A stretch of 64,000 nt of DNA from Siphonodentalium dalli (taxonomy: Eukaryota; Mollusca; Scaphopoda; Gadilida; Siphonodentaliidae), in NCBI GenBank assembly GCA_032622095.1, contig CP136066.1, positions 144,861,559-144,925,558 of the forward strand, given 5' to 3'. This document shows, in pieces, positions 3,596-55,150 of this stretch. Both the position numbers and the translations under genes were made by a program. Numbering within the stretch: the first letter of the stretch is position 1; the number at the start of each line of letters is the position of its first letter. The notes beneath the pieces are model-generated. The model saw nothing but the letters and a program-made list of their open reading frames with translations. It did not search any database and was not told the origin of the DNA.

Positions 3596-4200
3596 GAGGT
3601 GTGACTGTCCCAATGGGACTACGGATACCCCCTGTTTTTAAAATACTAGGATGTTTCACATGTCAGTAAACATTTAGTTAAAATAATAAAATAACAGTTC
3701 CCATTGCAGGGTAAAACCAACCATAACCATAATCTTAAACCTATTGACAGAAAAATGTAGGAATAAAAGCTTGGACAAAATTATGCATGTTGCGAAAAAA
3801 AATTCGAAAAAGGGGAATAACTCCACACAAAAAAATGTCGAACAGACGTCATAATTGCAGGTGCACAGGTTCCCATGGTACTAAATATCAGTGCCAAGAT
3901 TAAAAAACATTGACCGAAAAATGTAGGAATAAAAGCTCGGCCTAAATTATGCATGTTGCAAAAAAAATTCTAAGTCGAAAAAGGGGGATAACTCCACCAA
4001 AAAAGGTCAGACAGACGTCATAATGACAAGTGCACAGGTTCCCATGGTGGTTGATGTCTGTGCCAAGTTTCAAGGAAATTGATCAAAAAACGACTGAGAA
4101 AAACTCCGGACAAATTTGTGTCCACGGACGGACGGACGGACGACGGATGGACGGACAAGCTGACTCCAGTATACCCCCCTAACTTCGTTGCGTGGGGTAT
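3596..4200. repeat. Tandem degenerate repeat with GGAC tetramers
   Basis: Two diverged units of roughly 165 bases share AAAAATGTAGGAATAAAAGCT, CAGACGTCATAAT and GTGCACAGGTTCCCATGG. They are followed by a CGGACGGACGGACGG run at about 4127-4155 and the end TTCGTTGCGTGGGGTAT. No coding content. It looks like part of a dispersed non-autonomous element of the kind common in marine invertebrates. Confidence 0.5.
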
Positions 4201-4481
4201 AAAACAATTATTAATTTAATTTTATGTATTAACAATTATAGTTGAGATATACGCAATAAATTCAATAACAATATTTGTTTATGTTGATGGCCTCTATCCA
4301 TCGATGTATCGATTAAAATATCGGTTCACCAAACAGCGATCGAAACCCTATAATTTATAGGCCGTGGCTAGAGTACCGTATACGGCACTTTAGCCGAACT
4401 GTTAAAGTATCGTATACGGCACTTTAGCCAGTGCGTAATTTATATATAGGCCTAGGCCTAGGATGCTTTATAAAATAAGCG
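4201..4481. other. AT-rich spacer with a short duplication
   Basis: A phrase containing CGTATACGGCACTTTAGCC occurs twice about 40 bases apart near 4375-4432. Nothing else is recognised. Confidence 0.4.
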
Positions 4482-4485
4482 TTAA

Positions 4486-5126
4486 AGGGGTACTGTACAC
4501 CAATTTCAATAAATTCCCCGCGACAATAGCGATATAATATGAATATTATATTATAAAATAACTAATTTGAGTCGACGATGTCTACTCAAAACGTTCCGGC
4601 AGGCTATTGTAAAAGTAAAATTGAATTATTTAATATAAATTCATTTATGGCTGGAGTCATAAAATAGCGAATTATGCCATTACGAGTTACCGTTCTTGAA
4701 ATCGCATCTGCTGCGTGTCTTTTATTGACGACCGTTCGAGAACATTATTGAGTTGCAAACAAAACATGTTACCTGCAAAAGGAAGGCCCGTTATAACCGA
4801 TACGGAAAAAAGGAGAAAGAAACAAGGGTCATAAAGCGTCAAGTACTTTTATGGGGAGTGAGATTGTTCGATGGAAGAGATAGAATGCACCAATCGAAGC
4901 TGTGAGTAATGAACTTCCGGTTCTTCCTGATACCTGCGTCTTCTCCGATGAAGGTCAAAAACATGGCGCGTAGTTTGAAATCGTAATATTTTTCTTTCCA
5001 AGATCAATATTTTCTTCGCTAAATTAGGTTTATACGAAACTCATATAACACGAACACAATCTAACTTGAAAGTTATTTCAATGGGAGTAAAAAAAAAAAT
5101 TGCCTATCTCTGTGTACAGTACCCCT
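4486..5126. mobile_element. TTAA-type MITE, 641 bp
   Basis: The 15-base terminal repeat AGGGGTACTGTACAC is exact at both ends. The left flank is TTAA (4482-4485); the right flank is TTAG (5127-5130), one change from TTAA. A TTAA target and short terminal repeats are piggyBac hallmarks. No transposase ORF is present inside, so it is non-autonomous. Confidence 0.75.
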
Positions 5127-5542
5127 TTAGTTGGCTGAACGAATAATACAACGCCATCAAAATATTTAACGCTCGTTATGTATTGATAAAATTAAAGGCA
5201 TGATTGGATATCCGATCGGAACATATTGACGTTATAGTACAATGTAGTAGCCTATAATTTTCGTTTTACATTTATATTTTTTAGTTTTCAGTTTTTATAT
5301 TTTTGATGGCTATGAATTTTGCGACCTTTAAAAATACAAATATGAACATAATATTGATATTATTATATATTATGAACTATACTTGAACATGTTAACTTTA
5401 TTCCTATGCCTATGTAACTATATATATAAATTAGCAGGACCTGCATGGAATCCGCAATGTTTGGAATATCAAACCTAGTGACAAAACTCTAATATATTTA
5501 GCAACGGGTTTGTGCTAAAGGTAATATGCATAATATATCATA
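5127..5542. other. AT-rich spacer
   Basis: Very AT-rich sequence (for example 5330-5430) with no ORF of note and no repeat I could match. Confidence 0.3.
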
Positions 5543-6560
5543 CTAGCCGATGAGCCCGACGTTGTCCGGGCTATTCAAAAACCAAATTTCAAGTCGATAG
5601 CTCCACCCGCTTCCGAGATCTCGTCTGCGCATGCACGGGCTCGGCGACCCGATAAAATTCGTATCCGGGGCAAGATACATTCACATACCAAATTTCAAGT
5701 CGATAGCTCCACCCGTTTCCGAGATCTGGTCTGCGCATGCGCGAAGCTTGCGTCGCACGGGCTGGGCGACCCGATAAAAATCGTATCCGGGGCAAGATAC
5801 ATTCACATAGCAAATTTCAAGTCGATAGCTCCACCCGTTTCCGAGATCTCGTCTGCGCATGCACTGCACGGGCGTTGCACGGGCTCGCCAATACGACAAG
5901 GACGACCGCCTGGTCAAACTACACACACGTACCAAGTTTCGTCCCGATCGGTCGCGAATCGTAGACGGGCTCGCCAATACGACAACGACGACCGCCTGGT
6001 CAAACTACACACATCTTGAACCAGTGGCGTTGGTATCTGATGCAAAAGACGAAATTGTGAATGTTGGTTTGTAACCGGGATTTCTGAGAATAGAAGAATT
6101 ATGCCTATATCCACACTAACTACCCCCCTAAGCCCTGACCTAAGTGTCATACATACTATAACAATGATGCTGAACACTTTGAGGCAATTATATTGCAGAA
6201 ATGTTGTAAGAGTACTATGGCCCGTATATCTCTCTGCAGATGCTAGTAACGTTGAATGGTAAACAAACGCTCTTTATAGCGATGCGTCAAAAACAAACGC
6301 TCATTAAATTATCACTTGATTAACCACCGCAGTGCCGTTTTTATGACTGAGAGTGGAGAACGGGTGGTCTGAGCTTCTCCAAAACGCGACGCCGACGGTG
6401 TCCGTGAGATTTTACCTTTGGATAGGAAGTTTGGTCTCGATCTGTCAACCCGTTTTCGATTCTATAAAGGACAGACAGACAGACAAACAGAGGTCTTCAA
6501 AACATATATGATATTCTTGATCTATAGGCCTACCATATAGCAGAATGATACATGATGAAA
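5543..6560 (-). mobile_element. Helitron-like element, 3' end at 5543
   Basis: On the minus strand the element ends in CTAG followed by T. A hairpin lies a few bases before it (AGCCCG/CGGGCT arms at 5552-5571). A hairpin, then CTRR, then T is the Helitron 3' signature. The stem carries CGGACAACGTCGGGC, closely matching the hairpin at 40,471. Inside are three tandem units of about 110-125 bases (5579-5850) sharing CAAATTTCAAGTCGATAGCT, and two units near 5885-6010 sharing ACGACCGCCTGGTCAAACTA. A GACA tetramer run at 6470-6492 corresponds to the TCTG run in the other copy. The 5' end is not resolved; 6560 is a guess. Confidence 0.5.
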
Positions 6561-6603
6561 TACAAACAACTATAGGAAAAAAGAGATTGCTCTGTTTCCT
6601 TAA

Positions 6604-8161
6604 CCCTTTGAACCCGTAACACCGATATTTAGGTGCAAACGAACCGTGACTATATCCCGTAACACCGATATTTCGGTGCAGCGACGACATGATTCGGTAG
6701 CAAATTTATATATAGTATAACGAGCGTCAGACCAACTGATTTATATTTAAATTGCCCCCACATATGTCAGCGGCGCCCATGGTGCGTATGGAATGGTTGA
6801 CCGCTAGTATCGGGTAGAAATATATGCGCATAGCATATAATCTACAAAAACATACGATATTTTAAGCGAACTGTGCCGCTATATTTAGGGCATATAATTT
6901 CGTGTTCCCCGTTTGTGTACAGAACAGACATAATTTAGACACACAATTTCAGTTTAAATTACCCTCGTGTATATTAACCAGTGTTCTGCTACATATGGGG
7001 AAGGGTCTATCCCATATGAAGTTGATTTATTCGCGCATGCGCAGACTAGCGCAATGACAAATAAATGGTTTTATAACGTACTTATACACGACATACCCAC
7101 TAATATATATATTTAAATTGGCCTATTGAAGTCAGCGCTGGCAAAGGTGTCTATATGGATTGGCTGCCCGCTAGAAACGGCCAGGAAAATATGCGCATGG
7201 GCGCAGGCTATAATTCATTTTAAAAAATGCGTTTAAGTGAAATGTGGCGCTATATATGACATTTTGTTGCATGTTTCACATATTAGTACAGTAGACACAA
7301 TCTAGACAGCTTACTTGAACAATGGGGCCACGATATATGTTACGGGAAATTACGTTGTTTCTGGTCTCTATGATATCAGTCTCTGTTGTGCCACATGCAG
7401 CAAAAAGTCTATCGCATATCAAGTTGACTTACTCGCGCATGGTCAGGTATATCTTAATTTCACATTAGGATATTGGTTGCATCGAAACGCAATTCGCTGA
7501 TGTATAATTACAACGTTGTAGGCTAGAATTCGTTTATCCTGCAAATTTCGGGTAGTTGCTTAGTAACCGTTTCTAAGGCGAGATCGGGTGGCAAAGTCTC
7601 CCGATCTTACAATGATCAGTGGTCCGTGCATGAATATATCATGCCTGCACAGTTTCAGGTAGGTGTCCCCTTTCAACATAACCAACACCATGCGACTAGA
7701 CACTGTCTAAATTAAGGCAAAACATACCACTGAATGGTTAGTGCAATTATGTCATTCGATCAGTTGTGGTATTTGCTTAGCAACGGTTGCTACCTTTAAA
7801 TGGGATATTTGGTTCACTATTCTGGTCGGGTATATCTCAAATTTCACGTTAGGGTAGTACCTGCATCAAAAAACGCAATCACTGAGGTTGAATTACGACG
7901 CTATAAGCTATATTTACATTTTCCAGTCAATTCCGGGTAGTTGCCTAGCAACCGTTACCAAGGAGTTGCCACGAGGCAAAGTCTCGCGATCTTATAATGA
8001 TTTCTGATCCATGGGGGACAAACCTGTAAAGTTTCAGACCAGTGTCGCAATTTGAACATAATCAACACCATGATACTAGACACTGTCTAATTTAAGCGGA
8101 CATACCACAGGGAGCCCCGGGTCAGGGTGTCGATCACTGTGGGGCGCCAGGGTTCAAAGGG
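6604..8161. mobile_element. TTAA-type element, 1.56 kb, CCCTTTGAACCC termini
   Basis: Terminal repeats CCCTTTGAACCC (6604-6615) and its exact complement (8150-8161) are flanked by TTAA on both sides (6600-6603, 8162-8165). The interior has diverged direct duplications: about 6990-7040 resembles 7390-7440, and about 7440-7700 resembles 7810-8060. It also has a 40-base tandem around CGTAACACCGATATTT at 6616-6690. No transposase frame is visible; the longest ORF (7315-7500, 61 codons) looks accidental. Non-autonomous piggyBac-like element. Confidence 0.7.
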
Positions 8162-13640: not shown

Positions 13641-15170
13641 GGTGGGGGCCTCACCCAGCTAGGGAAGAGTTTTGAGTATATGTAGGCGGGATTGGTGTTG
13701 CCCGATGAAGTCGACAATTATTCAGTCGGTTCTTGGTATACGTCACACCTCCTCTGCAGTTCATCTACATTGACTGCCGTGCATAGACTGTATATGTTGT
13801 GCTCGAATACTTGCCAGCTATTGAATGATGATGGGAGTGCTATGTTATTGAATGACCACTTGGGCATGCGCCGTTGTGCTTTTACCATGTATCATGAACA
13901 CTATTATAGCCAGGTGACCTGATGGAAGTATGATGAGGTTTCATATTTCTTTTATATCCAGTTGCCAAGGATTGGAAGAACTTGGTCTGTTTTCAATTGT
14001 ATAATTACTTCTGTTTAATGGCTCCCTGTGGCAAGAAGGCACATAGCACACATGATGCATCGCATTCACATACATTTTATTTACTATTCGTTCTGTATGT
14101 ATGTTCCACACAGCCTTCAACACTTTGGTTACCTGATCAGTTTGAATATGGATGTTTGTTCCAAGGATCTAGTTCTCCATCGCTCTTACCTGTACCGTAT
14201 GCATCATCAATTTTCAATTACTGCATGACTCAGACTGAGTTTACAGTAATGACATTCTCCTGACAATAACTTTCAAGCTACTTAAAGTGTATACCTTGAC
14301 ATTCAGTTCACACCACCACTTGGACCTTGGCCATGCTCTGACATTTGAAAATACTGACTGCTCTTAAAGTTATACTGGTATCGGGATATGACATTTGCAA
14401 GAAGCTGTAACATTTGTTTTTATTTCGTTACATAACTTTGTTTTATTATGCCTCGTTGAGTATATATCCTAAAAGAGACCGGGGAGAGAGTTAAGAGAAA
14501 AATGGTTGCACCGGTTGCACCAGTGTGTATTCATGTTGTGTGGCGCTTATATATTATTTTATATATGTGTGACTTCACCAGTTTATATTAATGGTGTGTG
14601 TTTGCCGAAAGGCCAGAGAACTGGTCACACGCCAGTGTATGTATGTGTTAAAGTTGTATAACTGTGTTTACTGTGAGCGTGCTTTAACACACACTGGCGC
14701 TGGATATATTAAATTTCGTTGAATAATATGTTGATAAATAATACGTTTTGGGCAATCGTATACTGCAGTTTACCATGGTTAGCATTATTTTGGGGCAATT
14801 AATCGATTCTGATAACTGAAGCGGCATTTAAAAAAATGTTGTTGTTGTTGTTGGAATCTGATGATATGGGGATAATCGAATCGGATTGGGTACCTTTAAA
14901 AGCCCCGTATGCTCACTTCTATACCCCAGTCCCAAAATAGACCGACAGATATATTGAAAAAACCTTTATACCGACATTATTTTTGCAACATAATTAGGAC
15001 GTATATTTAAGTCATAGAAGTTAAGCAAGTCGGGTTTCGATTTTTCTTCACCATGCAAGGAAATATGAAGAGCTTAATTCCCTGTTAACCCATTCCTGGT
15101 TTGTTAAAGAGCGTTTATCTCTTTTCTATGGGAAGTGTTTTTTCTTCTTCAGAATGTACAAAGTATATTA
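13641..15170. other. Unassigned stretch with repeat pieces
   Basis: 14,631-14,700 forms a hairpin (GTGTGTTAAAG near its complement CTTTAACACACACTGGCG). 14,705-14,905 is a diverged copy of the right part of the TTAA element at 25.57-25.97 kb, ending in CGGATTGGGTACCTTTAA. The ORFs between 13,692 and 14,263 overlap in several frames and show no family signature. Confidence 0.4.
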
Positions 15171-15176
15171 TGCCGT
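15171..15176 (+). repeat. Left 6-bp target-site duplication TGCCGT
   Basis: TGCCGT directly abuts the first base of the giant palindrome. The same hexamer in the same orientation directly abuts its last base at 24,643-24,648. Polinton/Maverick integrases generate 6-bp duplications. Confidence 0.7.
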
Positions 15177-15550
15177 AGAAGAATAGGCGTCTCGTTGGTG
15201 TCACATCTAAAAATAGAATCTTTGGGGTCTAAAATTGGTTGTACTAAAATATTCCCAAAATATCAAAAACCCAAAAATTATTTTTCCAAAAAAAATTTCA
15301 AAACTTCCAAAATTTATTTTTTCCAAAAAATTTAAAAACTTCCAAAAAATTTCAAAACCCTAAAATTTCAAAAGAAAAAATTTCAAAACCCTCAAAATTA
15401 TTTCTCCAAAAAAAGTTTAAATAAAAAATTTATAACGAGTTTTAGGTTTCTGATAATCTCGATATTAAAATGTCGAATGTTAAATTATTTGCGCGTAATA
15501 TCTTTCGTTATTTTTTTTGTTCAAATATTTTTCAATGTATTTATTAATCG

Positions 15551-15943
15551 ATGTTTAGAAATAGCTTTATTGGACATTGTGACCATCGATATGAATGCAT
15601 ACATTCCAGTGTTTTATCGGACGCAGTTCATATAATTGTCATACCTGAAAATAGACACTATTACTTTTACATAAATAATAAAGAGCGTTTATTCTTTACA
15701 CTCTCTCTATCCCATATGACAGGTGTGTATTATCGTGAATTATTGGAAGTATTGAGACTAACGGTCGAAAATTGTAATGTGAAATTACAACCCTCCAGAA
15801 TGAATTGTCATATTCGCTGTACACGCAATCACACACGCGACATTGGTGGTAACAATGTGTCTTTCACACCTTTGCTTTACCAAATGAATTATATTATTTC
15901 CCCGTTCACAGTTATATGCTATTCAGAAAACATATCGATTTAA
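15551..15943 (+). CDS. Unassigned 130-codon ORF in left arm
   Basis: Encodes a histidine- and cysteine-containing protein of no family I recognise; its mirror at 23,876-24,268 on the minus strand differs at one residue (Leu versus Ser near residue 65). Conservation between arms says little, since the arms are near-identical throughout. There is no TATA box or AATAAA at tidy spacing comparable to the zinc-finger gene. It could be a small element gene or simply an open stretch. Confidence 0.25.
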   Translation: MFRNSFIGHCDHRYECIHSSVLSDAVHIIVIPENRHYYFYINNKERLFFTLSLSHMTGVYYRELLEVLRLTVENCNVKLQPSRMNCHIRCTRNHTRDIGGNNVSFTPLLYQMNYIISPFTVICYSENISI

Positions 15944-16651
15944 TGTCTGAACAAACGGGTTAGTATCAATTAAGGTTGATAAACTGTGTCATTCACACGA
16001 TAATTAGTTAGCCAAAAACATGCATACGTCCAGGACACTCAATTATAGAAATTGCTTTGATGACATTGTTATAACAACATTACGTAATAACCACTTATCG
16101 CCCCACATTCATACTTACGCTTTGGACATTTTATCAGTTTATCACGTGATCACTAAATGTGGCAATCGGGTATCCACCGATGCCTGCAATATATTATTTA
16201 TAATAATTGGACTCATTGATCTCACGTGAATAATACTCTTAGTTGTTCCAATAAAATAGTTATCAAATTCGATCACCAATAGATTTGACTGTGGAATGTA
16301 ATGACCTTTTAACTTATTTATCGATCTAAAGGGACACTCATTATGAATGAATGTTAACAATACAAGCGCACGAATGAAGAGCGTTGAACATATACGAAAT
16401 TACTACACGAATTAATTGAACCTTGAAATTTATATTTCACATCTTACCAACAACAGTTACAGACATAATCATAGTATTATACTGTCTTGCATGTACACAC
16501 GCTATGACATCATTAAGGGCGGACAATCCACTCACGGTGTGACAACAGATACGGACATAGGCATAGTGTTATACAGTCTTCTATGTACCCACGCTATGAC
16601 ACCATTAACGTACATTGGATGTTAGGTCTATGACTCTTGAGTATGCACCAA

Positions 16652-17176
16652 TCAATGAGCAAATGAGCAAAAAAATGAGCAAATGAGCAAAAAAATGAGC
16701 ACATGAGCAAGAAAATGAGCAAATTAGCAAGAAAATGAGCAAATGAGCAAGAAAATGAGCAAATGAGCAATAAAAATGAGCAAATGAGCAAAAAAATGAG
16801 CAAATGAGCAAAAAAATGAGCACATGAGCAAGAAAATGAGCAAATGAGCAAGAAAATGAGCAAATGAGCAAGAAAATGAGCAAATGAGCAATAAAAATGA
16901 GCAAATGAGCAAAAAAATGAGCAAATGAGCAATAAAAATGAGCAAATGAGCAAAAAAATGAGCAAATGAGCAAGAACATGAGCAAATAAGCAATAAAAAT
17001 GAGCAAATGAGCAAAAAAATGAGCAAATGAGCAAGAAAATGAGCAAATGAGCAAGAAAATGAGCAAATGAGCAATAAAAATGAGCAAATGAGCAAATAAA
17101 TGAGCAAATGAGCAAAAAAATGAGCAATAAAATGAGCAAATGAGCAATAAAAATGAGCAAATGAGCAAAAAAATGG
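16652..17176. repeat. AGCAAATG minisatellite, left copy
   Basis: About 525 bases of alternating TGAGCAAA and TGAGCAAAAAAA/TGAGCAAGAAAA words, roughly 20 bases per compound unit. On the minus strand all three frames stay open, giving artificial Leu/Ile/Cys/Ser/His/Phe proteins that look like membrane proteins. The right-arm copy is about 110 bases longer. Confidence 0.9.
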
Positions 17177-18479
17177 GCATACCTGTATGTAGGCCTATCA
17201 GTGGAAGAATAGTCTGCCGGAGAAGTACTGTGTAGACAGGTCTTGACGGTAAGAGAGTCAGACGAGAAGTGAAGGCTTGGCTATTAAAACATAGTAATGC
17301 GATAGCGAACATCAAACGAGTCTGCGCACACATATCTGTCAAAAGGATACAATAGCAGTCATTGGTCAATTTATCCCCGGTGTCAGCTCAGTACCCAATC
17401 GGGACGAAGCCGAAGGTCAACTCATTTTTTTTTTGTGCTCATTATAGTACGTCACTTGGACATTTTATCAGTTTATCACGTGATCACTAAATGTGGCAAT
17501 CGGGTATCCACCGATGCCTGCAATTTATTATTTATAATAATTGGACTCATTGATCTCACGTAAATAATACTCTTAGTTGTTCCAATAAAATAGTTATCAA
17601 ATTCGATCACCAATAGATTTGACTGTGGAATATAATGACCTTTAACTTATTTATCGATCTATGTTAGAACATGGTCTTAACAAAAAACTTGACCATAACA
17701 AAAATTACCTTACATTTATGCATGAATCTAATTAGACCATACGTAAATATTGTCAGCTTATCGTCTGATGAGCAAATCCGATGTTTATCAAAAATAGTAC
17801 AACTTCCAGTTGGTAATTACTCTTACGAATGAAGAGCGTTGAACATATACGAAATTACTACACGAATGAACTGAAATTTATATTTTCACATCTTACCAAC
17901 AACAGATACAGACATAGTCATAGTGTTATACTATCTTACATGTACCCATGCTATGACATCATTCGAAGGGGCAATACACTCAAGGAGTTAAAGTGACACG
18001 AAACAAGGGACGTGATGTAATATTGGTATTTGAATCTTAAAGGAACACAAGACACTCTAAAGGGACACTCATTATGAATGAATGTTAACAATACAAGCGC
18101 ACGAATGAAGAGCGTTGAACATATACAAAATTACTACACGAATGAATTGAACCTTGAAATTTATATTTCACATCTTACCAACAACAGCTACAGGCATTAT
18201 CATAGGGTTATACTGTCTTGCATATACACACGCTATGACATCATTAAAGGCGGACAATCCACTCACGGTGTGACAACAGATACAGACATAGGCATAGTGT
18301 TATACAGTCTTCTATGTACCAATGCTATGACATAATTAAAGGGGGATAATACACGCACGGTGTGGAATGTTAAAGTGACACGCGGTAAGGGACGTGATGT
18401 AATATTGGTGAAACCCCCTCCCCCACTTATAGATATATAACGAAGACGAGAATAACATGTTGATGAAGTTTATTGAAAT

Positions 18480-19082
18480 TTAATCATTGTCTGAATCTTC
18501 GCCCGTTAGATTTACTTCTAAGAGTTTCTTGAATTTTCTCATCGCTTCATCCGCAGCCCATTCATTATTATATCCGTGTTTGGTCAGTTTGACCATTTTC
18601 TTCATGATAGCGTTATGTATGCGGGATGTTTTCAATCGATGCTGGTATTCTATCAATCGTCTGTAACTTTTGAGAAAGAGAGAAAACTCTGTGTCGATGC
18701 GTTCTAGCTGAGCTTTTCCATCATCCTCTTCTCCCGACACGCCCTCTTCTTCCATCAGTTGATCAAACTTATCAGACAATGCTTTCACATCATCGATGAC
18801 GCGTTTCATCATACTTTTGAATGTGTTCATCTCATTGACGCATCGCGCAGCTTTCTTACGGCCGAATACCGTTCTACTACCGGCGATAGTATCATCCTCT
18901 GAATCTGATAGAGTTCCCCGTTCATCTTCATCTGAATCTAGACCCGCTTCGTCAGATTCATCGGTATCTTCTCCGAAGAGAGTTGGTTTTGTCTCGGACA
19001 TAACTCCGTGTTTAATCTGTTTATGTCTTTGTAGATTGTAGTTCGTCGATAAAATAATGCCACATAAATCACACCCGTGCAT
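18480..19082 (-). CDS. C2H2 finger / acidic / helical protein, left arm
   Basis: 200 residues. One classical finger, Cys-x2-Cys-x12-His-x4-His, occupies about residues 4-25. An acidic Asp/Glu/Ser stretch (about 36-66) and a basic turn near residue 74 (GRKK) follow, then a long charged helical region to the end. It differs from the right-arm copy at one residue (Leu versus Val near 126). By architecture it resembles the C2H2 proteins I recall from F54H12.2-type virus-like elements; a DNA-binding or replication role would be inference. Its ATG lies within the end of the upstream finger ORF (19,069-19,278), so the two may form one two-finger protein by frameshifting, or a coupled pair. An AATAAA signal follows the stop within a few bases. 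Confidence 0.65.
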   Translation of the reverse strand: MHGCDLCGIILSTNYNLQRHKQIKHGVMSETKPTLFGEDTDESDEAGLDSDEDERGTLSDSEDDTIAGSRTVFGRKKAARCVNEMNTFKSMMKRVIDDVKALSDKFDQLMEEEGVSGEEDDGKAQLERIDTEFSLFLKSYRRLIEYQHRLKTSRIHNAIMKKMVKLTKHGYNNEWAADEAMRKFKKLLEVNLTGEDSDND

Positions 19083-19159
19083 TATCGCGAATTATTGGAA
19101 GAACCATCACTCTTATAAGTATTTGTTGTTGTTGTTGTGGCTGATGTGGCTGATGATAC

Positions 19160-19190
<31 letters not shown>

Positions 19191-19278
19191 CTGAAGGTGT
19201 GTGTTTAACTTTGATATGACGCTTCAAACTATCTTGCCAAGCATAGACACTTAAGCACTCTTCACATTGATACTTCAT
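19069..19278 (-). CDS. Small C2H2 finger protein with polyglutamine, left arm
   Basis: 69 residues: a C2H2 finger (Cys-x2-Cys-x12-His-x4-His, residues 4-25) and then a CAA-encoded glutamine tract of ten, a His/Pro/Gln stretch and a second glutamine run. The C-terminal residues overlap the start of the next ORF in another frame by 14 bases. The right-arm copy has one glutamine fewer, a simple CAA slippage. Upstream on this strand is the same TATATAAATA box as in the right arm (mirror of 20,378-20,387). The short leader between box and ATG implies a viral-style compact promoter. Confidence 0.6.
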
Positions 19279-19540
19279 TTTCCTATATAATCAGTGAAAT
19301 CGAGCGTTCTTCTATGCACCTATATTTATATAGAACAGAAACAAGGGAAACGTGGTGGACTAGTTAACTAGTTCAGGCTGTCGTTCACAACGTCTCTTAT
19401 TGTTGTTTGTACTGGATACAAATTTATCACATTAGCTACAATACAACCTACCTATCCAAATGTCAATGCAATTATGAGTGATTTCAATATGAACACTCTA
19501 TTATATAGATATGTGTAACCTGGTGACTGACATGATGCTA

Positions 19541-19755
19541 CAGTTATGCACTAAATAATGGACTGCTTAACCACAGCAGAATTATAGGTAACTTTTCAGG
19601 AGTTAGTCGGAAATATGGCTTGTTGCCATTCATCGGAAAGCTCTCACCGCCGCCGGCGGCGGCGGCGGCGGTATTGCGATATTTTACTGCGGCGGCGGTG
19701 TCGCCACCGCCGCCGGGGTCCGCCGCCGTCGGACCCCACAGTAAAATACTGCAAT

Positions 19756-19786
<31 letters not shown>

Positions 19787-19896
19787 GCGGTGAGAGCTTT
19801 CCGATGAATGGCAACAAGCCATATTTCCGACTAACTCCTGAAAAGTTACCTATAATTCTGCTGTGGTTAAGCAGTCCATTATTTAGTGCATAACTG
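19541..19896. mobile_element. TA-flanked foldback element at palindrome axis
   Basis: Starts CAGTTATGCACTAAATAATG after TA and ends with its complement before TA. The arms share CACAGCAGAATTATAGGTAA, GTCGGAAATATGGCTTG and CATTCATCGGAAAGCTCTC with the 213-bp foldback at 47,672-47,884, in the same order. Between the arms sit CCG/CGG trinucleotide runs and the words GTATTGCGATATTTTACTG / CAGTAAAATACTGCAAT. Confidence 0.75.
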
Positions 19897-19990
19897 TATC
19901 ATCATGTCAGTCACCAGGTTACACATATCTATATAATAGAGTGTTCATATTGAAATCACTCATAATTGCATTGACATTTGGATAGGTAGG
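19709..19990. repeat. Central 282-bp spacer: extra copy of right inner arm
   Basis: After a short unique GC-rich join (GGGGTCCGCCGCCGTCGGAC), this segment repeats almost exactly the sequence found again at about 20,015-20,264. The right side therefore has two direct copies of the inner arm where the left has one. Confidence 0.7.
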
Positions 19991-20377
19991 GGTGGCGACA
20001 CCGCCGCCGCAGTAAAATATCGCAATACCGCAATGCCGCCGCCGCCGCCGCCGCCGGCGGCGGTGAGAGCTTTCCGATGAATGGCAACAAGCCATATTTC
20101 CGACTAACTCCTGAAAAGTTACCTATAATTCTGCTGTGGTTAAGCAGTCCATTATTTAGTGCATAACTGTATCATCATGTCAGTCACCAGGTTACACATA
20201 TCTATATAATAGAGTGTTCATATTGAAATCACTCATAATTGCATTGACATTTGGATAGGTAGGTTGTATTGTAGCTAATGTGATAAATTTGTATCCAGTA
20301 CAAACAACAATAAGAGACGTTGTGAACGACAGCCTGAACTAGTTAACTAGTCCACCACGTTTCCCTTGTTTCTGTTC

Positions 20378-20387
20378 TATATAAATA
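20378..20387 (+). promoter_or_regulatory. TATA box of right-arm finger gene
   Basis: TATATAAATA stands 54 bases before ATG 20,432, so transcription would start about 20,408 and give a leader of about 25 bases. The mirror site occurs in the left arm. Confidence 0.6.
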
Positions 20388-20431
20388 TAGGTGCATAGAA
20401 GAACGCTCGATTTCACTGATTATATAGGAAA

Positions 20432-20638
20432 ATGAAGTATCAATGTGAAGAGTGCTTAAGTGTCTATGCTTGGCAAGATAGTTTGAAGCGTCATATCAAA
20501 GTTAAACACACACCTTCAGAACAACAACAACAACAACAACAACAACAGTATCATCAGCCACATCAGCCACAACAACAACAACAAATACTTATAAGAGTGA
20601 TGGTTCTTCCAATAATTCGCGATAATGCACGGGTGTGA
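20432..20638 (+). CDS. Small C2H2 finger protein with polyglutamine, right arm
   Basis: 68 residues, identical in plan to the left-arm copy: one C2H2 finger at residues 4-25, a CAA-encoded nine-glutamine tract, a His/Pro/Gln linker, and a C-terminal tail out of frame with the next ORF. It ends TGA 20,636-20,638, nine bases beyond the ATG (20,625) of the following ORF. The gene reads outward from the palindrome axis behind a strong TATA box. Finger proteins of this size are often DNA-binding regulators, but the target is unknown. An intron cannot be excluded, though I found no good donor-acceptor pair that would fuse the two ORFs. Confidence 0.6.
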   Translation: MKYQCEECLSVYAWQDSLKRHIKVKHTPSEQQQQQQQQQYHQPHQPQQQQQILIRVMVLPIIRDNARV

Positions 20639-21227
20639 TTTATGTGGCATTATTTTATCGACGAACTACAATCTACAAAGACATAAACAGATTAAACACG
20701 GAGTTATGTCCGAGACAAAACCAACTCTCTTCGGAGAAGATACCGATGAATCTGACGAAGCGGGTCTAGATTCAGATGAAGATGAACGGGGAACTCTATC
20801 AGATTCAGAGGATGATACTATCGCCGGTAGTAGAACGGTATTCGGCCGTAAGAAAGCTGCGCGATGCGTCAATGAGATGAACACATTCAAAAGTATGATG
20901 AAACGCGTCATCGATGATGTGAAAGCATTGTCTGATAAGTTTGATCAACTGATGGAAGAAGAGGGCGTGTCGGGAGAAGAGGATGATGGAAAAGCTCAGG
21001 TAGAACGCATCGACACAGAGTTTTCTCTCTTTCTCAAAAGTTACAGACGATTGATAGAATACCAGCATCGATTGAAAACATCCCGCATACATAACGCTAT
21101 CATGAAGAAAATGGTCAAACTGACCAAACACGGATATAATAATGAATGGGCTGCGGATGAAGCGATGAGAAAATTCAAGAAACTCTTAGAAGTAAATCTA
21201 ACGGGCGAAGATTCAGACAATGATTAA
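20625..21227 (+). CDS. C2H2 finger / acidic / helical protein, right arm
   Basis: 200 residues, ATG 20,625 to TAA 21,225-21,227. The finger (residues 4-25), acidic segment and helical C-terminal half are as in the left arm. In its own frame a stop lies at 20,613, so the frame opens only 12 bases before the ATG; any fusion with the upstream finger must therefore occur within about 20 bases, or the ATG is used by reinitiation. AATAAA at 21,233-21,238 gives an extremely short 3' region. Tight TATA-to-AATAAA packing is typical of DNA-virus genes rather than animal host genes. Confidence 0.65.
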   Translation: MHGCDLCGIILSTNYNLQRHKQIKHGVMSETKPTLFGEDTDESDEAGLDSDEDERGTLSDSEDDTIAGSRTVFGRKKAARCVNEMNTFKSMMKRVIDDVKALSDKFDQLMEEEGVSGEEDDGKAQVERIDTEFSLFLKSYRRLIEYQHRLKTSRIHNAIMKKMVKLTKHGYNNEWAADEAMRKFKKLLEVNLTGEDSDND

Positions 21228-21232
21228 ATTTC

Positions 21233-21238
21233 AATAAA
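21233..21238 (+). terminator. Polyadenylation signal
   Basis: AATAAA begins five bases after the stop codon of the right-arm finger gene; the mirror signal serves the left-arm gene. Confidence 0.6.
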
Positions 21239-22529
21239 CTTCATCAACATGTTATTCTCGTCTTCGTTATATATCTATAAGTGGGGGAGGGGGTTTCACC
21301 AATATTACATCACGTCCCTTACCGCGTGTCACTTTAACATTCCACACCGTGCGTGTATTATCCCCCTTTAATTATGTCATAGCATTGGTACATAGAAGAC
21401 TGTATAACACTATGCCTATGTCTGTATCTGTTGTCACACCGTGAGTGGATTGTCCGCCTTTAATGATGTCATAGCGTGTGTATATGCAAGACAGTATAAC
21501 CCTATGATAATGCCTGTAGCTGTTGTTGGTAAGATGTGAAATATAAATTTCAAGGTTCAATTCATTCGTGTAGTAATTTTGTATATGTTCAACGCTCTTC
21601 ATTCGTGCGCTTGTATTGTTAACATTCATTCATAATGAGTGCCCCTTTAGAGTGTCTTGTGTTCCTTTAAGATTCAAATACCAATATTACATCACGTCCC
21701 TTGTTTCGTGTCACTTTAACTCCTTGAGTGTATTGCCCCTTCGAATGATGTCATAGCATGGGTACATGTAAGATAGTATAACACTATGACTATGTCTGTA
21801 TCTGTTGTTGGTAAGATGTGAAAATATAAATTTCAGTTCATTCGTGTAGTAATTTCGTATATGTTCAACGCTCTTCATTCGTAAGAGTAATTACCAACTG
21901 GAAGTTGTACTATTTTTGATAAACATCGGATTTGCTCATCAGACGATAAGCTGACAATATTTACGTATGGTCTAATTAGATTCATGCATAAATGTAAGGT
22001 AATTTTTGTTATGGTCAAGTTTTTTGTTAAGACCATGTTCTAACATAGATCGATAAATAAGTTAAAGGTCATTATATTCCACAGTCAAATCTATTGGTGA
22101 TCGAATTTGATAACTATTTTATTGGAACAACTAAGAGTATTATTTACGTGAGATCAATGAGTCCAATTATTATAAATAATAAATTGCAGGCATCGGTGGA
22201 TACCCGATTGCCACATTTAGTGATCACGTGATAAACTGATAAAATGTCCAAGTGACGTACTATAATGAGCACAAAAAAAAAATGAGTTGACCTTCGGCTT
22301 CGTCCCGATTGGGTACTGAGCTGACACCGGGGATAAATTGACCAATGACTGCTATTGTATCCTTTTGACAGATATGTGTGCGCAGACTCGTTTGATGTTC
22401 GCTATCGCATTACTATGTTTTAATAGCCAAGCCTTCACTTCTCGTCTGACTCTCTTACCGTCAAGACCTGTCTACACAGTACTTCTCCGGCAGACTATTC
22501 ATCCACTGATAGGCCTACATACAGGTATG

Positions 22530-23165
22530 CCCATTTTTTTGCTCATTTGCTCATTTTTATTGCTCATTTGCTCATTTTATTGCTCATTTTTTTGCTCATT
22601 TATTTGCTCATTTGCTCATTTTTATTGCTCATTTGCTCATTTTCTTGCTCATTTGCTCATTTTCTTGCTCATTTGCTCATTTTTTTGCTCATTTGCTCAT
22701 TTTTATTGCTCATTTGCTCATTTTCTTGCTCATTTGCTCATTTTTTTGCTCATTTGCTCATTTTTATTGCTCATTTGCTCATTTTCTTGCTCATTTGCTC
22801 ATTTTATTGCTCATTTGCTCATTTTCTTGCTCATTTGCTCATTTTCTTGCTCATTTGCTCATTTTATTGCTCATTTGCTCATTTTCTTGCTCATTTGCTC
22901 ATTTTTTTGCTCATTTGCTCATTTTTATTGCTCATTTGCTCATTTTCTTGCTCATTTGCTCATTTTCTTGCTCATTTGCTCATTTTCTTGCTCATGTGCT
23001 CATTTTTTTGCTCATTTGCTCATTTTTTTGCTCATTTGCTCATTTTTATTGCTCATTTGCTCATTTTCTTGCTCATTTGCTCATTTTCTTGCTCATTTGC
23101 TCATTTTCTTGCTCATGTGCTCATTTTTTTGCTCATTTGCTCATTTTTTTGCTCATTTGCTCATT
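22530..23165. repeat. AGCAAATG minisatellite, right copy
   Basis: Reverse complement of the left array, about 636 bases, so roughly 110 bases longer. Three plus-strand frames are open throughout (up to 295 codons), but the protein is purely repeat-encoded and I do not treat it as a gene. Confidence 0.9.
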
Positions 23166-23875
23166 GATTGGTGCATACTCAAGAGTCATAGACCTAACAT
23201 CCAATGTACGTTAATGGTGTCATAGCGTGGGTACATAGAAGACTGTATAACACTATGCCTATGTCCGTATCTGTTGTCACACCGTGAGTGGATTGTCCGC
23301 CCTTAATGATGTCATAGCGTGTGTACATGCAAGACAGTATAATACTATGATTATGTCTGTAACTGTTGTTGGTAAGATGTGAAATATAAATTTCAAGGTT
23401 CAATTCATTCGTGTAGTAATTTCGTATATGTTCAACGCTCTTCATTCGTGCGCTTGTATTGTTAACATTCATTCATAATGAGTGTCCCTTTAGATCGATA
23501 AATAAGTTAAAAGGTCATTACATTCCACAGTCAAATCTATTGGTGATCGAATTTGATAACTATTTTATTGGAACAACTAAGAGTATTATTCACGTGAGAT
23601 CAATGAGTCCAATTATTATAAATAATATATTGCAGGCATCGGTGGATACCCGATTGCCACATTTAGTGATCACGTGATAAACTGATAAAATGTCCAAAGC
23701 GTAAGTATGAATGTGGGGCGATAAGTGGTTATTACATAATGTTGTTATAACAATGTCATCAAAGCAATTTCTATAATTGAGTGTCCTGGACGTATGCATG
23801 TTTTTGGCTAACTAATTATCGTGTGAATGACACAGTTTATCAACCTTAATTGATACTAACCCGTTTGTTCAGACA

Positions 23876-24268
23876 TTAAATCGATATGTTTTCTGAATAG
23901 CATATAACTGTGAACGGGGAAATAATATAATTCATTTGGTAAAGCAAAGGTGTGAAAGACACATTGTTACCACCAATGTCGCGTGTGTGATTGCGTGTAC
24001 AGCGAATATGACAATTCATTCTGGAGGGTTGTAATTTCACATTACAATTTTCAACCGTTAGTCTCAATACTTCCGATAATTCACGATAATACACACCTGT
24101 CATATGGGATAGAGAGAGTGTAAAGAATAAACGCTCTTTATTATTTATGTAAAAGTAATAGTGTCTATTTTCAGGTATGACAATTATATGAACTGCGTCC
24201 GATAAAACACTGGAATGTATGCATTCATATCGATGGTCACAATGTCCAATAAAGCTATTTCTAAACAT
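23876..24268 (-). CDS. Unassigned 130-codon ORF in right arm
   Basis: Mirror of 15,551-15,943 with a single residue change. No recognised family. If the palindrome is a defective viral genome, this could be a terminal small gene of that virus. Confidence 0.25.
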   Translation of the reverse strand: MFRNSFIGHCDHRYECIHSSVLSDAVHIIVIPENRHYYFYINNKERLFFTLSLSHMTGVYYRELSEVLRLTVENCNVKLQPSRMNCHIRCTRNHTRDIGGNNVSFTPLLYQMNYIISPFTVICYSENISI

Positions 24269-24642
24269 CGATTAATAAATACATTGAAAAATATTTGAAC
24301 AAAAAAAATAACGAAAGATATTACGCGCAAATAATTTAACATTCGACATTTTAATATCGAGATTATCAGAAACCTAAAACTCGTTATAAATTTTTTATTT
24401 AAACTTTTTTTGGAGAAATAATTTTGAGGGTTTTGAAATTTTTTCTTTTGAAATTTTAGGGTTTTGAAATTTTTTGGAAGTTTTTAAATTTTTTGGAAAA
24501 AATAAATTTTGGAAGTTTTGAATTTTTTTTTGGAAAAATAATTTTTGGGTTTTTGATATTTTGGGAATATTTTAGTACAACCAATTTTAGACCCCAAAGA
24601 TTCTATTTTTAGATGTGACACCAACGAGACGCCTATTCTTCT

Positions 24643-24648
24643 TGCCGT
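24643..24648 (+). repeat. Right 6-bp target-site duplication TGCCGT
   Basis: Direct match to 15,171-15,176, immediately after the last base of the right arm. Confidence 0.7.
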
Positions 24649-25570: not shown

Positions 25571-25973
25571 AGGTACTCAATCCGATTAAACACCCCTAAA
25601 TTACTATTTCTTTGGCTTCTGGTGTAAAAAATATGTGATTCGAGTCGAGGAACCTAAGCATCAAAGCTCAGAGTGATCAGATATCGATTTTTGAAGTTTG
25701 CTATTTCAATTGTTTGTGGCCCAGAAATACGTCGTAAAATGGACGGTCTCAAAATTGCGGATGAAGATGGATAGCTCTAAAAATAGGCCATATTTCGTTG
25801 AACAAAATGCTGATAATTAACACGTTTTTGTGGAAATTTGATACCATAGTTGACAGTGGTTAGCATTATTTTGTTGCAATTAATCGATTCTTATAACTAA
25901 AGGGTATTTCGAAGAAATGTTGTTGTTATTGTATCTTGATGATATGGGGACCCTCTGATCGGATTGAGTACCT
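25571..25973. mobile_element. TTAA-type MITE, AGGTACTCAATCCGA termini
   Basis: Left end AGGTACTCAATCCGA and right end TCGGATTGAGTACCT are exact complements. The right flank is TTAA (25,974-25,977); the left is ATAA. Part of the left half recurs at about 36,965-37,090 and part of the right half at 14,705-14,905. The duplicated block around the LINE begins inside its right terminus. Confidence 0.7.
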
Positions 25974-26764
25974 TTAAATTTTCCGAGAAATTCGGGTTTG
26001 AAGTTTTGGTCGCTCAGTTTTCATATTTGCTTTGTTCTCGCCGCTTTGGAACTATGCGAATATTATCCATGACATCGACATACACCTAGATGTGACACTT
26101 CACAGTGTAATATGCACTCCATCCAGGGGGGGGGGGCGAATTTTTTTTTACGAGACGTGAGGTAGGGGGGGGGGGTAGGTGGGTACCCGAGGCCGGAAAC
26201 AGTTTTTGACCACTTTTTTTTGCATTTTTTGTTCATTGACATATTTTCAACTGTTTTAAACATATTTGTTTATATGTTGTGGCTTGTTGCAATATGAGAA
26301 GCACTTTTATATTCAATATTGTTATAATTACCCCCCCCCCCCCCCATAAGTTGATATAAAATGGAAAATAGTGAATATTGTGGGGGTGGGTCCCAAAATT
26401 TTCATTGATTTTATTTTTGCGTGCAATTTTTTTTTATTTTGTCTGTTTCAGCTTGCTTGGCAGTTTTTACAATGAAAATTGTCTAGTTCACGGTGTAGCT
26501 CAATAAAAAAATACTTCCGATAGCTCTAGGGTAGGGTGAACTTAATGCAGTCTGACAATATCAGCTAACAACTCATGACAGAATATTAATTACAATAATT
26601 CTTAGACTCTAAATTTATTCATACAGTTAGTTGATGCATGAGTGTAATGTATGAAATAAGTATTTGTATCAGTGTTTGTACACTAAAATTGATTGCATAT
26701 CAGCATATGTGATACAATTATGGCCATGTGACACTCAACGCAGGGCAACTCATTTTATTTTTAA

Positions 26765-27497
26765 CCCTTCGAACACTATGGCCCCAGAGCATTAGTAGCA
26801 CCCTGGCGCGGGGCTCCCACTCGTTCTGTATCTGTATCTGTAGATATTACAGTGCAGGAACCAATTCTGGTTGTAGACGCACTGGTCCAGGTGCTACCAC
26901 GGCCGAGTGACTTTATAACCCTGTGGTGACTCCAGTAGCGTTCTTTAACGTGCACACACCGAAGCGTGTACACGGGTCAGCCATTAATTTCCGCGCCCGA
27001 TCGGACAGCGTACTGCACCCACGACAACATACCTGGGCAAGTGTTGTAATGGGGGGAAGTCGGCATTTTGCATTCGGATCTTTATTCAGTGATCTCGAAT
27101 GAGACTTTTCAGCCTGACAAACTTGGTATCTGACCGAGTTCTGATTTTTGTCAGAATACCCTGACCAGGTTGTGAACCCCGGTCCGCTAGCACGAGAGAC
27201 CAGTACGCTACCTCTCGGCTATACCGACTTCCCTATCAAATAACCGCCGGTATTCTCAGTGTATCAGCATAATGTATAGTTAATAATATATAGTAGACAC
27301 AGGTAGACATATAATAGTAAATCAAGAGTACAACCGGTATACCGTAAACAGAAGACCAAATTGGAGTTATCTTCCCTACACCAACACAATGACGTTACGC
27401 TTACTGTGACCTCATCTCCACGGTCACATGTCACTAAAGTGCACATCTGTGTATATGGATTTGGCACTAAATTGACCATCCGCGTTAACTCAAAGGG
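26765..27497. mobile_element. TTAA-type element containing a SINE
   Basis: Begins CCCTTCGA after TTAA (26,761-26,764) and ends TCAAAGGG before TTAA (27,498-27,501). Most of the interior is the SINE at 26,770-27,236, so either a SINE entered a MITE or the TTAA element captured it. Confidence 0.6.
26770..27236 (-). mobile_element. tRNA-derived SINE
   Basis: Minus strand: A box TAGCCGAGAGGTAGCG (27,206-27,221) and B-box-like GGTTCACAACC (27,168-27,178) lie at tRNA spacing. A body with CTTTAACGTGCAC-type sequence (its complement near 26,945-26,957) and GGCCGTGGTAGCACCTGG follows. The latter phrase recurs at 2283-2305. The right-hand duplicate is at 34,645-35,111. Confidence 0.6.
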
Positions 27498-28479
27498 TTA
27501 AACAATATTTTAGGCCTAGTCCTAAGTCATAATGCGAGGTCGCGGTCGGTGGCATACATAAAAGCTAATTCATATGCACATTTTCCTTTTTGGTATTACT
27601 ATAGGCTCTAGGCCTACTAGTTGATGCTGGTTGATGTCTGAAAAAAAGATAAATTTAATTTTGTGTAATTTTGTATTCTATTATATAGGCCCTAACACTG
27701 GCCCTAGTTATTTTTTGTTGTCATTCCAGGGGATTCAACATATTTTTCATCTACTCACACAGATGAATAGGCTGGGTTATAAATTTGCCAATATAATCAC
27801 ATCATATTCTACCTTTGTTGATTGCTTAGAGTTCAATTTAGTTGAGATTATCGCTGATTACTGCTGATTATCGCATAAATATCAGCCAAGAAAATATTTG
27901 TCTTGTACATGTTTGTAAACAGGAAGTAACATTTAATTTGGTCTTTCAATATAGAGGGATCAATATAGAGCGGTTGGCCGTTTTTACAGAGGGGACCAAC
28001 ATAAAGCGTTGGGGTTTTTGGGTGGGTGTCTAAAATTTTATGAAAAAAAAAATGCAAGAAAGGGTGGGCGGGTGTAAAAAAATGGCAATGTAAAAAAAAA
28101 CCACCCCCACGTCTAGCAACTTTGTTACGCCCCCCCCCCGCTCCATCGCTAGAAAACGACGAAAACGTGTTTGGAGATACGACTTTTACGGAACATAGTG
28201 CGAGTGCGATTATAATGCTGTATAGTAGGAGATACAACATTGATGCACGCAAACGAAATCGTCGTAATTGTGTGTAATAGTGCCGAATGTAAAAGTTATA
28301 GTTGAAAACTCTCCAGATAATATATTATTATTATATCTTTATTTCCTCCAGATATTGAAGATTTTACAAAGAATATAACATTGTTATGCACAACATAATG
28401 AATAGATATCATTATTAAATTTTATAGAAACAACACAAATAAATATGATAAGCAAGACGTATTTACATTTCTACAATGG

Positions 28480-33834: not shown

Positions 33835-36196
33835 TCGGATTGAGTACCTTTAAATTTTCCGAGAAATTCGGGTTTGAAGTTTTGGTCGCTCAGTTTTCAT
33901 ATTTGCTTTGTTCTCGCCGCTTTGGAACTATGCGAATATTATCCATGACATCGACATACACCTAGATGTGACACTTCACAGTGTAATATGCACTCCATCC
34001 AGGGGGGGGGGGCGAATTTTTTTTTACGAGACGTGAGGTAGGGGGGGGGGGTAGGTGGGTACCCGAGGCCGGAAACAGTTTTTGACCACTTTTTTTTGCA
34101 TTTTTTGTTCATTGACATATTTTCAACTGTTTTAAACATATTTGTTTATATGTTGTGGCTTGTTGCAATATGAGAAGCACTTTTATATTCAATATTGTTA
34201 TAATTACCCCCCCCCCCCCCATAAGTTGATATAAAATGGAAAATAGTGAATATTGTGGGGGTGGGTCCCAAAATTTTCATTGATTTTATTTTTGCGTGCA
34301 ATTTTTTTTTATTTTGTCTGTTTCAGCTTGCTTGGCAGTTTTTACAATGAAAATTGTCTAGTTCACGGTGTAGCTCAATAAAAAAATACTTCCGATAGCT
34401 CTAGGGTAGGGTGAACTTAATGCAGTCTGACAATATCAGCTAACAACTCATGACAGAATATTAATTACAATAATTCTTAGACTCTAAATTTATTCATACA
34501 GTTAGTTGATGCATGAGTGTAATGTATGAAATAAGTATTTGTATCAGTGTTTGTACACTAAAATTGATTGCATATCAGCATATGTGATACAATTATGGCC
34601 ATGTGACACTCAACGCAGGGCAACTCATTTTATTTTTAACCCTTCGAACACTATGGCCCCAGAGCATTAGTAGCACCCTGGCGCGGGGCTCCCACTCGTT
34701 CTGTATCTGTATCTGTAGATATTACAGTGCAGGAACCAATTCTGGTTGTAGACGCACTGGTCCAGGTGCTACCACGGCCGAGTGACTTTATAACCCTGTG
34801 GTGACTCCAGTAGCGTTCTTTAACGTGCACACACCGAAGCGTGTACACGGGTCAGCCATTAATTTCCGCGCCCGATCGGACAGCGTACTGCACCCACGAC
34901 AACATACCTGGGCAAGTGTTGTAATGGGGGGAAGTCGGCATTTTGCATTCGGATCTTTATTCAGTGATCTCGAATGAGACTTTTCAGCCTGACAAACTTG
35001 GTATCTGACCGAGTTCTGATTTTTGTCAGAATACCCTGACCAGGTTGTGAACCCCGGTCCGCTAGCACGAGAGACCAGTACGCTACCTCTCGGCTATACC
35101 GACTTCCCTATCAAATAACCGCCGGTATTCTCAGTGTATCAGCATAATGTATAGTTAATAATATATAGTAGACACAGGTAGACATATAATAGTAAATCAA
35201 GAGTACAACCGGTATACCGTAAACAGAAGACCAAATTGGAGTTATCTTCCCTACACCAACACAATGACGTTACGCTTACTGTGACCTCATCTCCACGGTC
35301 ACATGTCACTAAAGTGCACATCTGTGTATATGGATTTGGCACTAAATTGACCATCCGCGTTAACTCAAAGGGTTAAACAATATTTTAGGCCTAGTCCTAA
35401 GTCATAATGCGAGGTCGCGGTCGGTGGCATACATAAAAGCTAATTCATATGCACATTTTCCTTTTTGGTATTACTATAGGCTCTAGGCCTACTAGTTGAT
35501 GCTGGTTGATGTCTGAAAAAAAGATAAATTTAATTTTGTGTAATTTTGTATTCTATTATATAGGCCCTAACACTGGCCCTAGTTATTTTTTGTTGTCATT
35601 CCAGGGGATTCAACATATTTTTCATCTACTCACACAGATGAATAGGCTGGGTTATAAATTTGCCAATATAATCACATCATATTCTACCTTATGCTTAGAG
35701 TTCAATTTAGTTGAGATTATCGCTGATTACTGCTGATTATCGCATAAATATCAGCCAAGAAAATATTTGTCTTGTACATGTTTGTAAACAGGAAGTAACA
35801 TTTAATTTGGTCTTTCAATATAGAGGGATCAATATAGAGCGGTTGGCCGTTTTTACAGAGGGGACCAACATAAAGCGTTGGGGTTTTTGGGTGGGTGTCT
35901 AAAATTTTATGAAAAAAAAAATGCAAGAAAGGGTGGGTGGGTGTAAAAAAATGGCAATGTAAAAAAAACCCACCCCCACGTCTAGCAACTTTGTTACGCC
36001 CCCCCCCCCCGCTCCATCGCTAGAAAACGACGAAAACGTGTTTGGAGATACGACTTTTACGGAACATAGTGCGAGTGCGATTATAATGCTGTATAGTAGG
36101 AGATACAACATTGATGCACGCAAACGAAATCGTCGTAATTGTGTGTAATAGTGCCGAATGTAAAAGTTATAGTTGAAAACTCTCCAGATAATATAT
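33835..36196 (+). repeat. 2.36-kb direct repeat, copy 2
   Basis: Begins TCGGATTGAGTACC and ends CCAGATAATATAT exactly as copy 1 does at the other side of the LINE. It carries its own TTAA element (34,640-35,372) and SINE. The sequence to its right (AGTCGTTCTGAATG) continues as the presumed original flank. Confidence 0.9.
34640..35372. mobile_element. TTAA-type element with SINE, duplicate
   Basis: Duplicate of 26,765-27,497, flanked by TTAA at 34,636-34,639 and 35,373-35,376. It was copied as part of the larger block and is not an independent insertion. Confidence 0.6.
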
Positions 36197-43305: not shown

Positions 43306-43309
43306 TTAA

Positions 43310-43799: not shown

Positions 43800-43803
43800 T
43801 TAA

Positions 43804-54968: not shown

Positions 54969-55150
54969 TTCATTGTGTTATGACCTATGTAACGCATATT
55001 AACATACTAAATATACCAAAAACAGGTCCCATGCAGTGATCAGGTTGGCCAAAGAAAGTTGAAGTGTTTGGTGACTATAATTCAAATCTGTGTCTGTGCG
55101 CATCTACTGTCATTGGTGTATGGTATCACAGCTAAGCGTAATGCTCTTAA

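Follow-up and report, generated by a model that had tools for sequence, protein, structure and literature searches.

The 64,000-nucleotide window analysed here (Siphonodentalium dalli, contig CP136066.1, forward-strand positions 144,861,559 to 144,925,558) contains a mirrored insert of 9.5 kb that we interpret, with a probability of roughly 0.7, as a member of a palindromic, non-autonomous family of Polinton satellites. When relatives across the assembly searched (2.23 Gb in 9 contigs) are compared, the copies give the impression of satellites that propagate, not of defective genomes standing alone.

Global alignment of the left arm of the insert (15177-19708, 4,532 bases) with its mirror image, the right arm (24642-19991, 4,652 bases), gave 4,509 identical columns and 12 mismatches over 4,521 aligned bases, together with four length differences: 120 and 8 bases in a 20-bp minisatellite, 3 in a TGT run and 11 in a GCGGC run. 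The mirror symmetry extends to the outermost AGAAGAATAGG and CCTATTCTTCT, and direct reading places TGCCGT immediately outside both ends. Among 20,000 random pairs of window positions, exact abutting 6-mers matched at a rate of 0.0003, and the end 17-mer (up to three mismatches) occurs within the window solely at the two element ends, against 0.03 expected. The near-identity of the arms right to their tips, the abutting TGCCGT and the Polinton-type AG..CT ends with a 6-bp target duplication had all been claimed in a preliminary description of this DNA, and each was borne out. At the centre of the element (19709-19990), the inner end of the right arm is repeated once more in tandem, over 273 bp. 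Inside a single arm, the copies of a 284-bp repeat diverge by ∼5%, far more than the arms do from each other; the arms were therefore equalised recently. The features of the element are as follows.

15171-15176, no strand: left target-site duplication, TGCCGT.
15177-16119, forward: left Polinton terminal inverted repeat, starting with (AGA)2 and comprising arm bases 1-943, assigned by DNA match to Polintons.
16120-18479, forward: satellite-specific part of the left arm, in which no gene was recognised and duplications of 284, 188 and 41 bp are dispersed.
16654-17179, forward: 20-bp minisatellite (AATGAGCA/AATGAGCAAAAA), left copy.
18480-19082, reverse: zinc-finger gene, left copy, 200 amino acids, without the ATPase domain of its fuller relatives.
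19072-19278, reverse: C2H2-finger open frame, left copy, 69 amino acids, matching the N-terminal part of the fuller gene.
19640-19800, no strand: palindrome axis, a GC-rich hairpin with a two-armed (T-shaped) tip.
19739-20263, forward: 273-bp tandem duplication that shifts the axis off centre.
20432-20638, forward: C2H2-finger open frame, right copy, 68 amino acids, with a TATA-like box 52-54 bases upstream.
20625-21227, forward: zinc-finger gene, right copy, 200 amino acids.
22528-23165, reverse: 20-bp minisatellite, right copy.
23700-24642, reverse: right Polinton terminal inverted repeat.
24643-24648, no strand: right target-site duplication, TGCCGT.

Seventeen elements were read at both ends. 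They were picked among the sequences scoring highest against the end of the window element, which biases their proportions towards kin of the window copy. Fourteen are palindromes and two are full Polintons; in the remaining one (L028), whose inverted ends match, the centre is hidden by exactly 5,000 N (2751-7750). A 6-bp target duplication was found in 16 of the 17, and the AG-ended relatives sought in the preliminary description are present in the same genome. Twelve elements have (AGA)2 at each end and are flanked by exact direct duplications of 6 bp, and a 3-base shift at one end was needed in three, where (AGA)3 (L017 and L025) or (AGA)1 (L028) is found. Protein-primed polymerases start by sliding back, and repeated end units fit this behaviour. 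The gain and loss of AGA copies matches what would be expected if terminal priming slips, and natural change of this kind at integrated ends looks like a genomic footprint of terminal slippage.

In the 15 elements compared, the two terminal repeats diverge by 0-1.15% within an element, against a median of 2.33% between different elements. Mates are mutually closest in 12 of the 15 elements, tie in two and are not closest in one Polinton. Given that repeats within an element are closer than those between elements, the arms were probably equalised at replication. In a tree of the terminal repeats, satellites and Polintons are intermixed. A 130-amino acid open frame within the repeat (15551-15943, forward) seemed coding, but most of the family members read have it interrupted and it is probably not a gene. 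A diverged copy (76-79%) of terminal-repeat bases 28-224 lies beside the axis in L013, L014, L015, L018, L019, L022, L023 and L026.

A search with the terminal 524 bases, in which the best 40 of 1,761 candidates were scored, revealed many inverted pairs 7.9-20.5 kb apart. The two full Polintons, 16 kb each, end in the same ∼0.94-kb repeat as the window element. The first (C5:74540018-74556135; L020 and L021) encodes PolB (PF03175, 1.8e-51), an rve and chromo integrase and homologues of TATA-binding protein and PC4, with weak, below-cut-off matches of further proteins to C5 protease and AAA/A32 ATPase. The PC4-like and TATA-binding-protein homologues lie on the forward strand of L021 at 42-530 (PF02229, 2.1e-15) and 666-1190 (PF00352, 2.9e-32), suggesting a Polinton with its own transcription factors. 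The second (C2:55909562-55925752; L024 and L025) likewise carries PolB and integrase. All 50 PolB copies scored (best 50 of 2,324 candidates) are 99-100% identical and free of stops, and the helper Polinton has therefore probably spread recently. In another Polinton family, convergent integrase copies and their surroundings (L047 and L048; C3:293380900-293382900 and 293385200-293387200) are inverted over 1,959 bases at 100%. Another six pairs of convergent integrase genes, the two genes lying within about 10 kb, were noted.

The preliminary description had proposed that a full Polinton might carry the arm as one terminus. This holds for the terminal repeat, which PolB- and integrase-bearing Polintons share, but not for the whole arm, for which the DNA match to the two full Polintons covers bases 1-943 only (92.5-94.5%). 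The axis hairpin is absent from these two Polintons, and a comparison of the 200-amino acid protein with Polinton proteins gave nothing significant; thus, the arm is not their terminus carried over whole. The other ∼3.6 kb of each arm form a distinct module that carries a gene of its own and is common to a large family of palindromes, and the earlier picture of a one-off, isolated defective genome mirrored from a whole Polinton terminus was not supported. A Polinton carrying the entire arm, unseen so far, could exist. Since no PolB or integrase domain was found in the three element open reading frames scanned in the window, the element is regarded as a non-autonomous derivative and not a Polinton. 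The same three frames gave no capsid-gene match, the 600-amino acid protein of the helper had no match in Pfam or the Protein Data Bank (PDB) and no capsid gene was recognised in the helper; the terminal 18-mer had no exact match among viral contigs.

The extent of the family was assessed by protein searches that took best-scoring candidates only, so that all gene counts are lower bounds. With the zinc-finger protein, the best 150 of 3,442 candidates fell into 95 clusters, comprising 46 two-member clusters (all divergent), 46 singles and three larger clusters. With the fuller protein described below, 77 main matches (19 short N-terminal fragments being left out) gave 56 clusters, comprising 21 pairs, again all divergent, and 35 singles, at least one of which (L017) is a palindrome. 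Two-member clusters are thus divergent in 67 of 67 cases across both searches, and stop-free frames were observed for 144 of 150 and 67 of 77 matches, respectively. A 20.5-kb compound of several satellite arms (C2:199640860-199661413; L010-L012), bounded by the target duplication AACGAA, may represent an inserted replication concatemer.

The centre of the window element, folded as DNA, gave -92 kcal/mol compared with -47.6 for shuffled sequences (z -14.8). A palindrome must fold anyway, and the telling point is therefore conservation rather than folding energy. The stem GCAGTAAAATAC(Y)GCAATGCC with its GC tip was found, in at least one half and with at most three mismatches, in 13 of the 14 palindromes read at both ends. 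The flanks of the hairpin are unlike: the window element, L016 and L017 have the GAAAGCTCTC type, and most members of the 189-amino acid group have (TTG)n. Genome-wide, the motif has 803 matches with no more than one mismatch, compared with none for the reversed pattern. Ten loci were chosen by this motif from 28 chromosome-1 loci away from scored genes (100 places listed of the 803), passing over two multi-motif loci and L026. All ten are palindromic over nearly all of the 4.4 kb read (95.7-99.0%), with the gene pair in nine. The order of the tip arms, reversed in L019 and L026, was considered as a sign of hairpin flipping and rejected, because the orientation of insertion is arbitrary and the order is therefore uninformative. 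Different one-arm deletions in L031 (3140-3240) and L032 (3355-3460) both end beside the same stem of the hairpin tip.

The 200-amino acid protein of the window has no relative in the protein database (E ≤ 10), viral contigs or PDB. In L009, L016, L027 and L029 the gene is considerably longer, at 564-580 codons, and Pfam analysis of the L016 and L027 proteins revealed C2H2 fingers and Pox_A32 (25-26 bits; cut-off 22.8) in the layout zinc finger-A32 ATPase-zinc finger. The ATPase of L009, L016 and L027 is 31% identical to that of the helper over 206 amino acids (5.5e-27 to 9.2e-27), and, judged from these comparisons, the window copy probably belongs to subfamilies that have lost it. The 566-amino acid protein of L016 has 161 relatives; those with a named source are mostly from bivalves. 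Among the 120 listed of the 161, 32 have a finger on either side of Walker A by a pattern of our own, the named sources being scallops, mussels, clams, pearl oyster and Solemya. In some gene models of Mya and Mytilus, integrase, chromo or C5 protease domains are fused to the zinc finger-ATPase, and full Polintons carrying this gene are therefore likely in these animals.

Selection on the ATPase was examined in 17 domain copies from 9 of 14 searched loci, matches of 191 residues or fewer being dropped. Seven of the 12 variant codons are synonymous and five nonsynonymous, compared with 412:1,496 possible changes (p = 0.006). Small as these numbers are, the domain shows signs of purifying selection. 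Variants present in at least two copies are 6:1 synonymous to nonsynonymous and singletons 1:4, a split made after seeing the data; this contrast, again from small numbers, fits selection during replication and neutrality after insertion. No Rep/NS1 nuclease domain was found in the three window element open frames scanned or in the fuller proteins of L016 and L027. A TATA box was discarded as a promoter signal, being upstream of 2 of 9 satellite and 4 of 14 Polinton genes compared with 19% of background windows.

Protein-primed replication and a viral nature are both attributed to Polintons, although to our knowledge direct evidence in animals for either is scarce. The observations above can be accommodated by a working model in which the protein-primed PolB of the helper would start at the (AGA)2 ends of the satellite and the helper integrase would insert the product. 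The extrachromosomal form would probably be a hairpin: a duplex arm capped by protein at one end and turning back on itself at the axis. Copying past this turn would generate the palindrome, keep the arms alike and produce the two ends that integrase requires. Such a hairpin intermediate, which we infer from sequence comparison, would explain the equalised arms, the conserved axis and the mirrored inserts, a mirrored molecule having two integrase ends. Dependence on the helper for replication and packaging is likewise suggested by the absence of replication genes and the shared ends, and the probable role of the zinc finger-ATPase is to direct satellite DNA into the particles of the helper. 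The family itself may have originated by snap-back. More tentatively, and as something possible rather than expected, the family could represent an animal satellite virus of a new kind, its linear genome having a Polinton end capped by protein and, opposite it, a T-shaped hairpin. It would be replicated through a palindromic dimer by the helper Polinton, integrated as a dimer since only the dimer has two integrase-competent ends, and equipped with a zinc finger-ATPase that would commandeer packaging by the helper. If a packaging-type ATPase is under selection in a satellite family, this would imply the existence of helper particles. Thanks to the mirrored architecture, a single species suffices for testing the replication intermediate.

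Several observations weigh against a family of propagating satellites with these properties. One zinc-finger cluster consists of four genes, all on the same strand, and few of the 46 zinc-finger and 35 zinc finger-ATPase singles were read. Of four zinc-finger singles that were, two (L030 and L033) are palindromes in which the partner has been rearranged; in the other two (L031 and L032) the partner gene is gone. Of the 56 zinc finger-ATPase clusters, none has any of the 50 scored PolB genes within 42 kb. The axis of L009 has no hairpin and that of L034 has a different GC-rich hairpin, and the conserved hairpin is therefore not essential. The end of L029 has slipped by 1 base rather than 3, and L022/L023 has no target duplication. 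Comparison of the 200- and 189-amino acid zinc-finger genes gave a dN/dS of about 0.60, indicating only weak constraint. Moreover, the extrachromosomal molecule, the particle and the terminal protein of the model are all putative.

The strongest rival is recurrent snap-back, in which PolB folds back afresh while replicating a zinc finger-ATPase lineage of Polintons that may have gone unseen, the hairpin is no more than a folding hot spot and copies do not breed as palindromes. The varied axes of L009 and L034, the mirrored integrase ends of L047/L048, the Mya and Mytilus fusions (through the full zinc finger-ATPase Polinton that probably exists elsewhere) and the hairpin and duplex forms to which protein-primed linear plasmids such as kalilo reportedly give rise by deletion are all consistent with it. 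It is nevertheless unlikely: an identical axis hairpin stands amid unlike flanks in different subfamilies, the 200-amino acid subfamily is mirrored many times with near-identical genes, and, with the best 50 of 2,324 PolB candidates scored, none of the scored copies in this genome has the gene linked to PolB. Inverted duplication of host DNA, or folding by the assembler, is very improbable. The host flanks of L022/L023 (with L035 and L036) are indeed mirrored for 1.87 kb beyond the stretch first read, at 99.5%, and this locus is either an inverted duplication or an assembly fold. By contrast, direct 6-bp duplications flank 16 of 17 elements, and the arms differ by substitutions and repeat number. 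For the window copy this account is nearly excluded, and folding of a single arm is unlikely because, in addition to those differences, the left flank (14904-15176) has no second match among the best 40 of 1,537 candidates; the empty TGCCGT site looked for at the suggestion of the preliminary description was not found among them either. Least probable of all is a cut-and-paste foldback-type transposon with very long inverted repeats and no Polinton kinship, which the long, internally repetitive inverted repeats of Galileo (available part of PMC3573991) would favour, but which is contradicted by the 0.94-kb terminal repeat common to PolB-bearing Polintons and by the 6-bp duplication with AG..CT ends, Galileo being flanked by 7-bp sequences in the same part of that source and IS3EU/GingerRoot having 6-bp duplications but mostly TA..TA ends.

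Elsewhere in the window, a 2.37-kb direct repeat (25959-28325 and 33835-36196, 99.5%) flanks a long interspersed nuclear element (LINE) with a GDSL-esterase/RRM ORF1 and an endonuclease-reverse transcriptase ORF2. The window was taken as eukaryotic because of its LINE genes, whose source-named relatives include the bivalves Ylistrum, Mercenaria and Argopecten, plus records labelled as symbiont metagenome-assembled genomes; by themselves these relatives would suggest that the host is probably a bivalve. A ∼0.45-0.5-kb repeat occurs three times (43306-43803, 55147-55594 and 59107-59607; 95.6-99.8% identical, one inverted), and a 169-bp tandem unit is present in two perfect copies at 63158-63498.

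Within the coverage of our literature search, which left most subscription papers outside, no palindromic, non-autonomous, miniature or satellite derivative of Polintons/Mavericks was found, in line with the preliminary description, and no paper combining Maverick/Polinton with palindrome or snap-back was among the matches listed. Vertebrate Mavericks have (AGT)2 or (AG)3 ends, a 6-bp target duplication and terminal repeats of 46-1,447 bp, according to the available part of PMC8097293. The window element resembles them in its 6-bp duplication and in AG..CT ends built of a repeated short unit, here (AGA)2 and rarely (AGA)1 or (AGA)3, and it differs in the length of its mirrored arms (4.5 kb). 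Its terminal repeat is common to PolB- and integrase-bearing elements of the same genome, whereas the window frames scanned lack PolB, integrase or any other known Polinton domain. With Foldback and Galileo it shares long inverted repeats containing tandem repeats, but its 6-bp duplication differs from the 7-bp flanks of Galileo (available part of PMC3573991), as do its ends and helper. IS3EU and GingerRoot mostly have TA..TA ends, in contrast to AG..CT here.

Parallels also come from protein-primed linear elements. Hairpin and duplex deletion derivatives of kalilo were reportedly described by Vierula and Bertrand in 1992, and pGKL1 is a hairpin plasmid derivative of a protein-primed linear plasmid. 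Like these, the satellite is a mirror-image deletion derivative of such an element; unlike them, it is integrated with target duplications, amplified to a family and endowed with a gene and a conserved axis hairpin. The inverted terminal repeat of parvoviruses forms a GC-rich, T-shaped hairpin with two tip arms, as does the axis here, but no relation in sequence or genes to parvoviruses was found and the other end of the satellite is Polinton-like. Finally, phage satellites redirect helper packaging by using their own version of a helper packaging protein, and the proposed Polinton satellite would be comparable, as a small element with its own version of such a protein in a putative packaging role.

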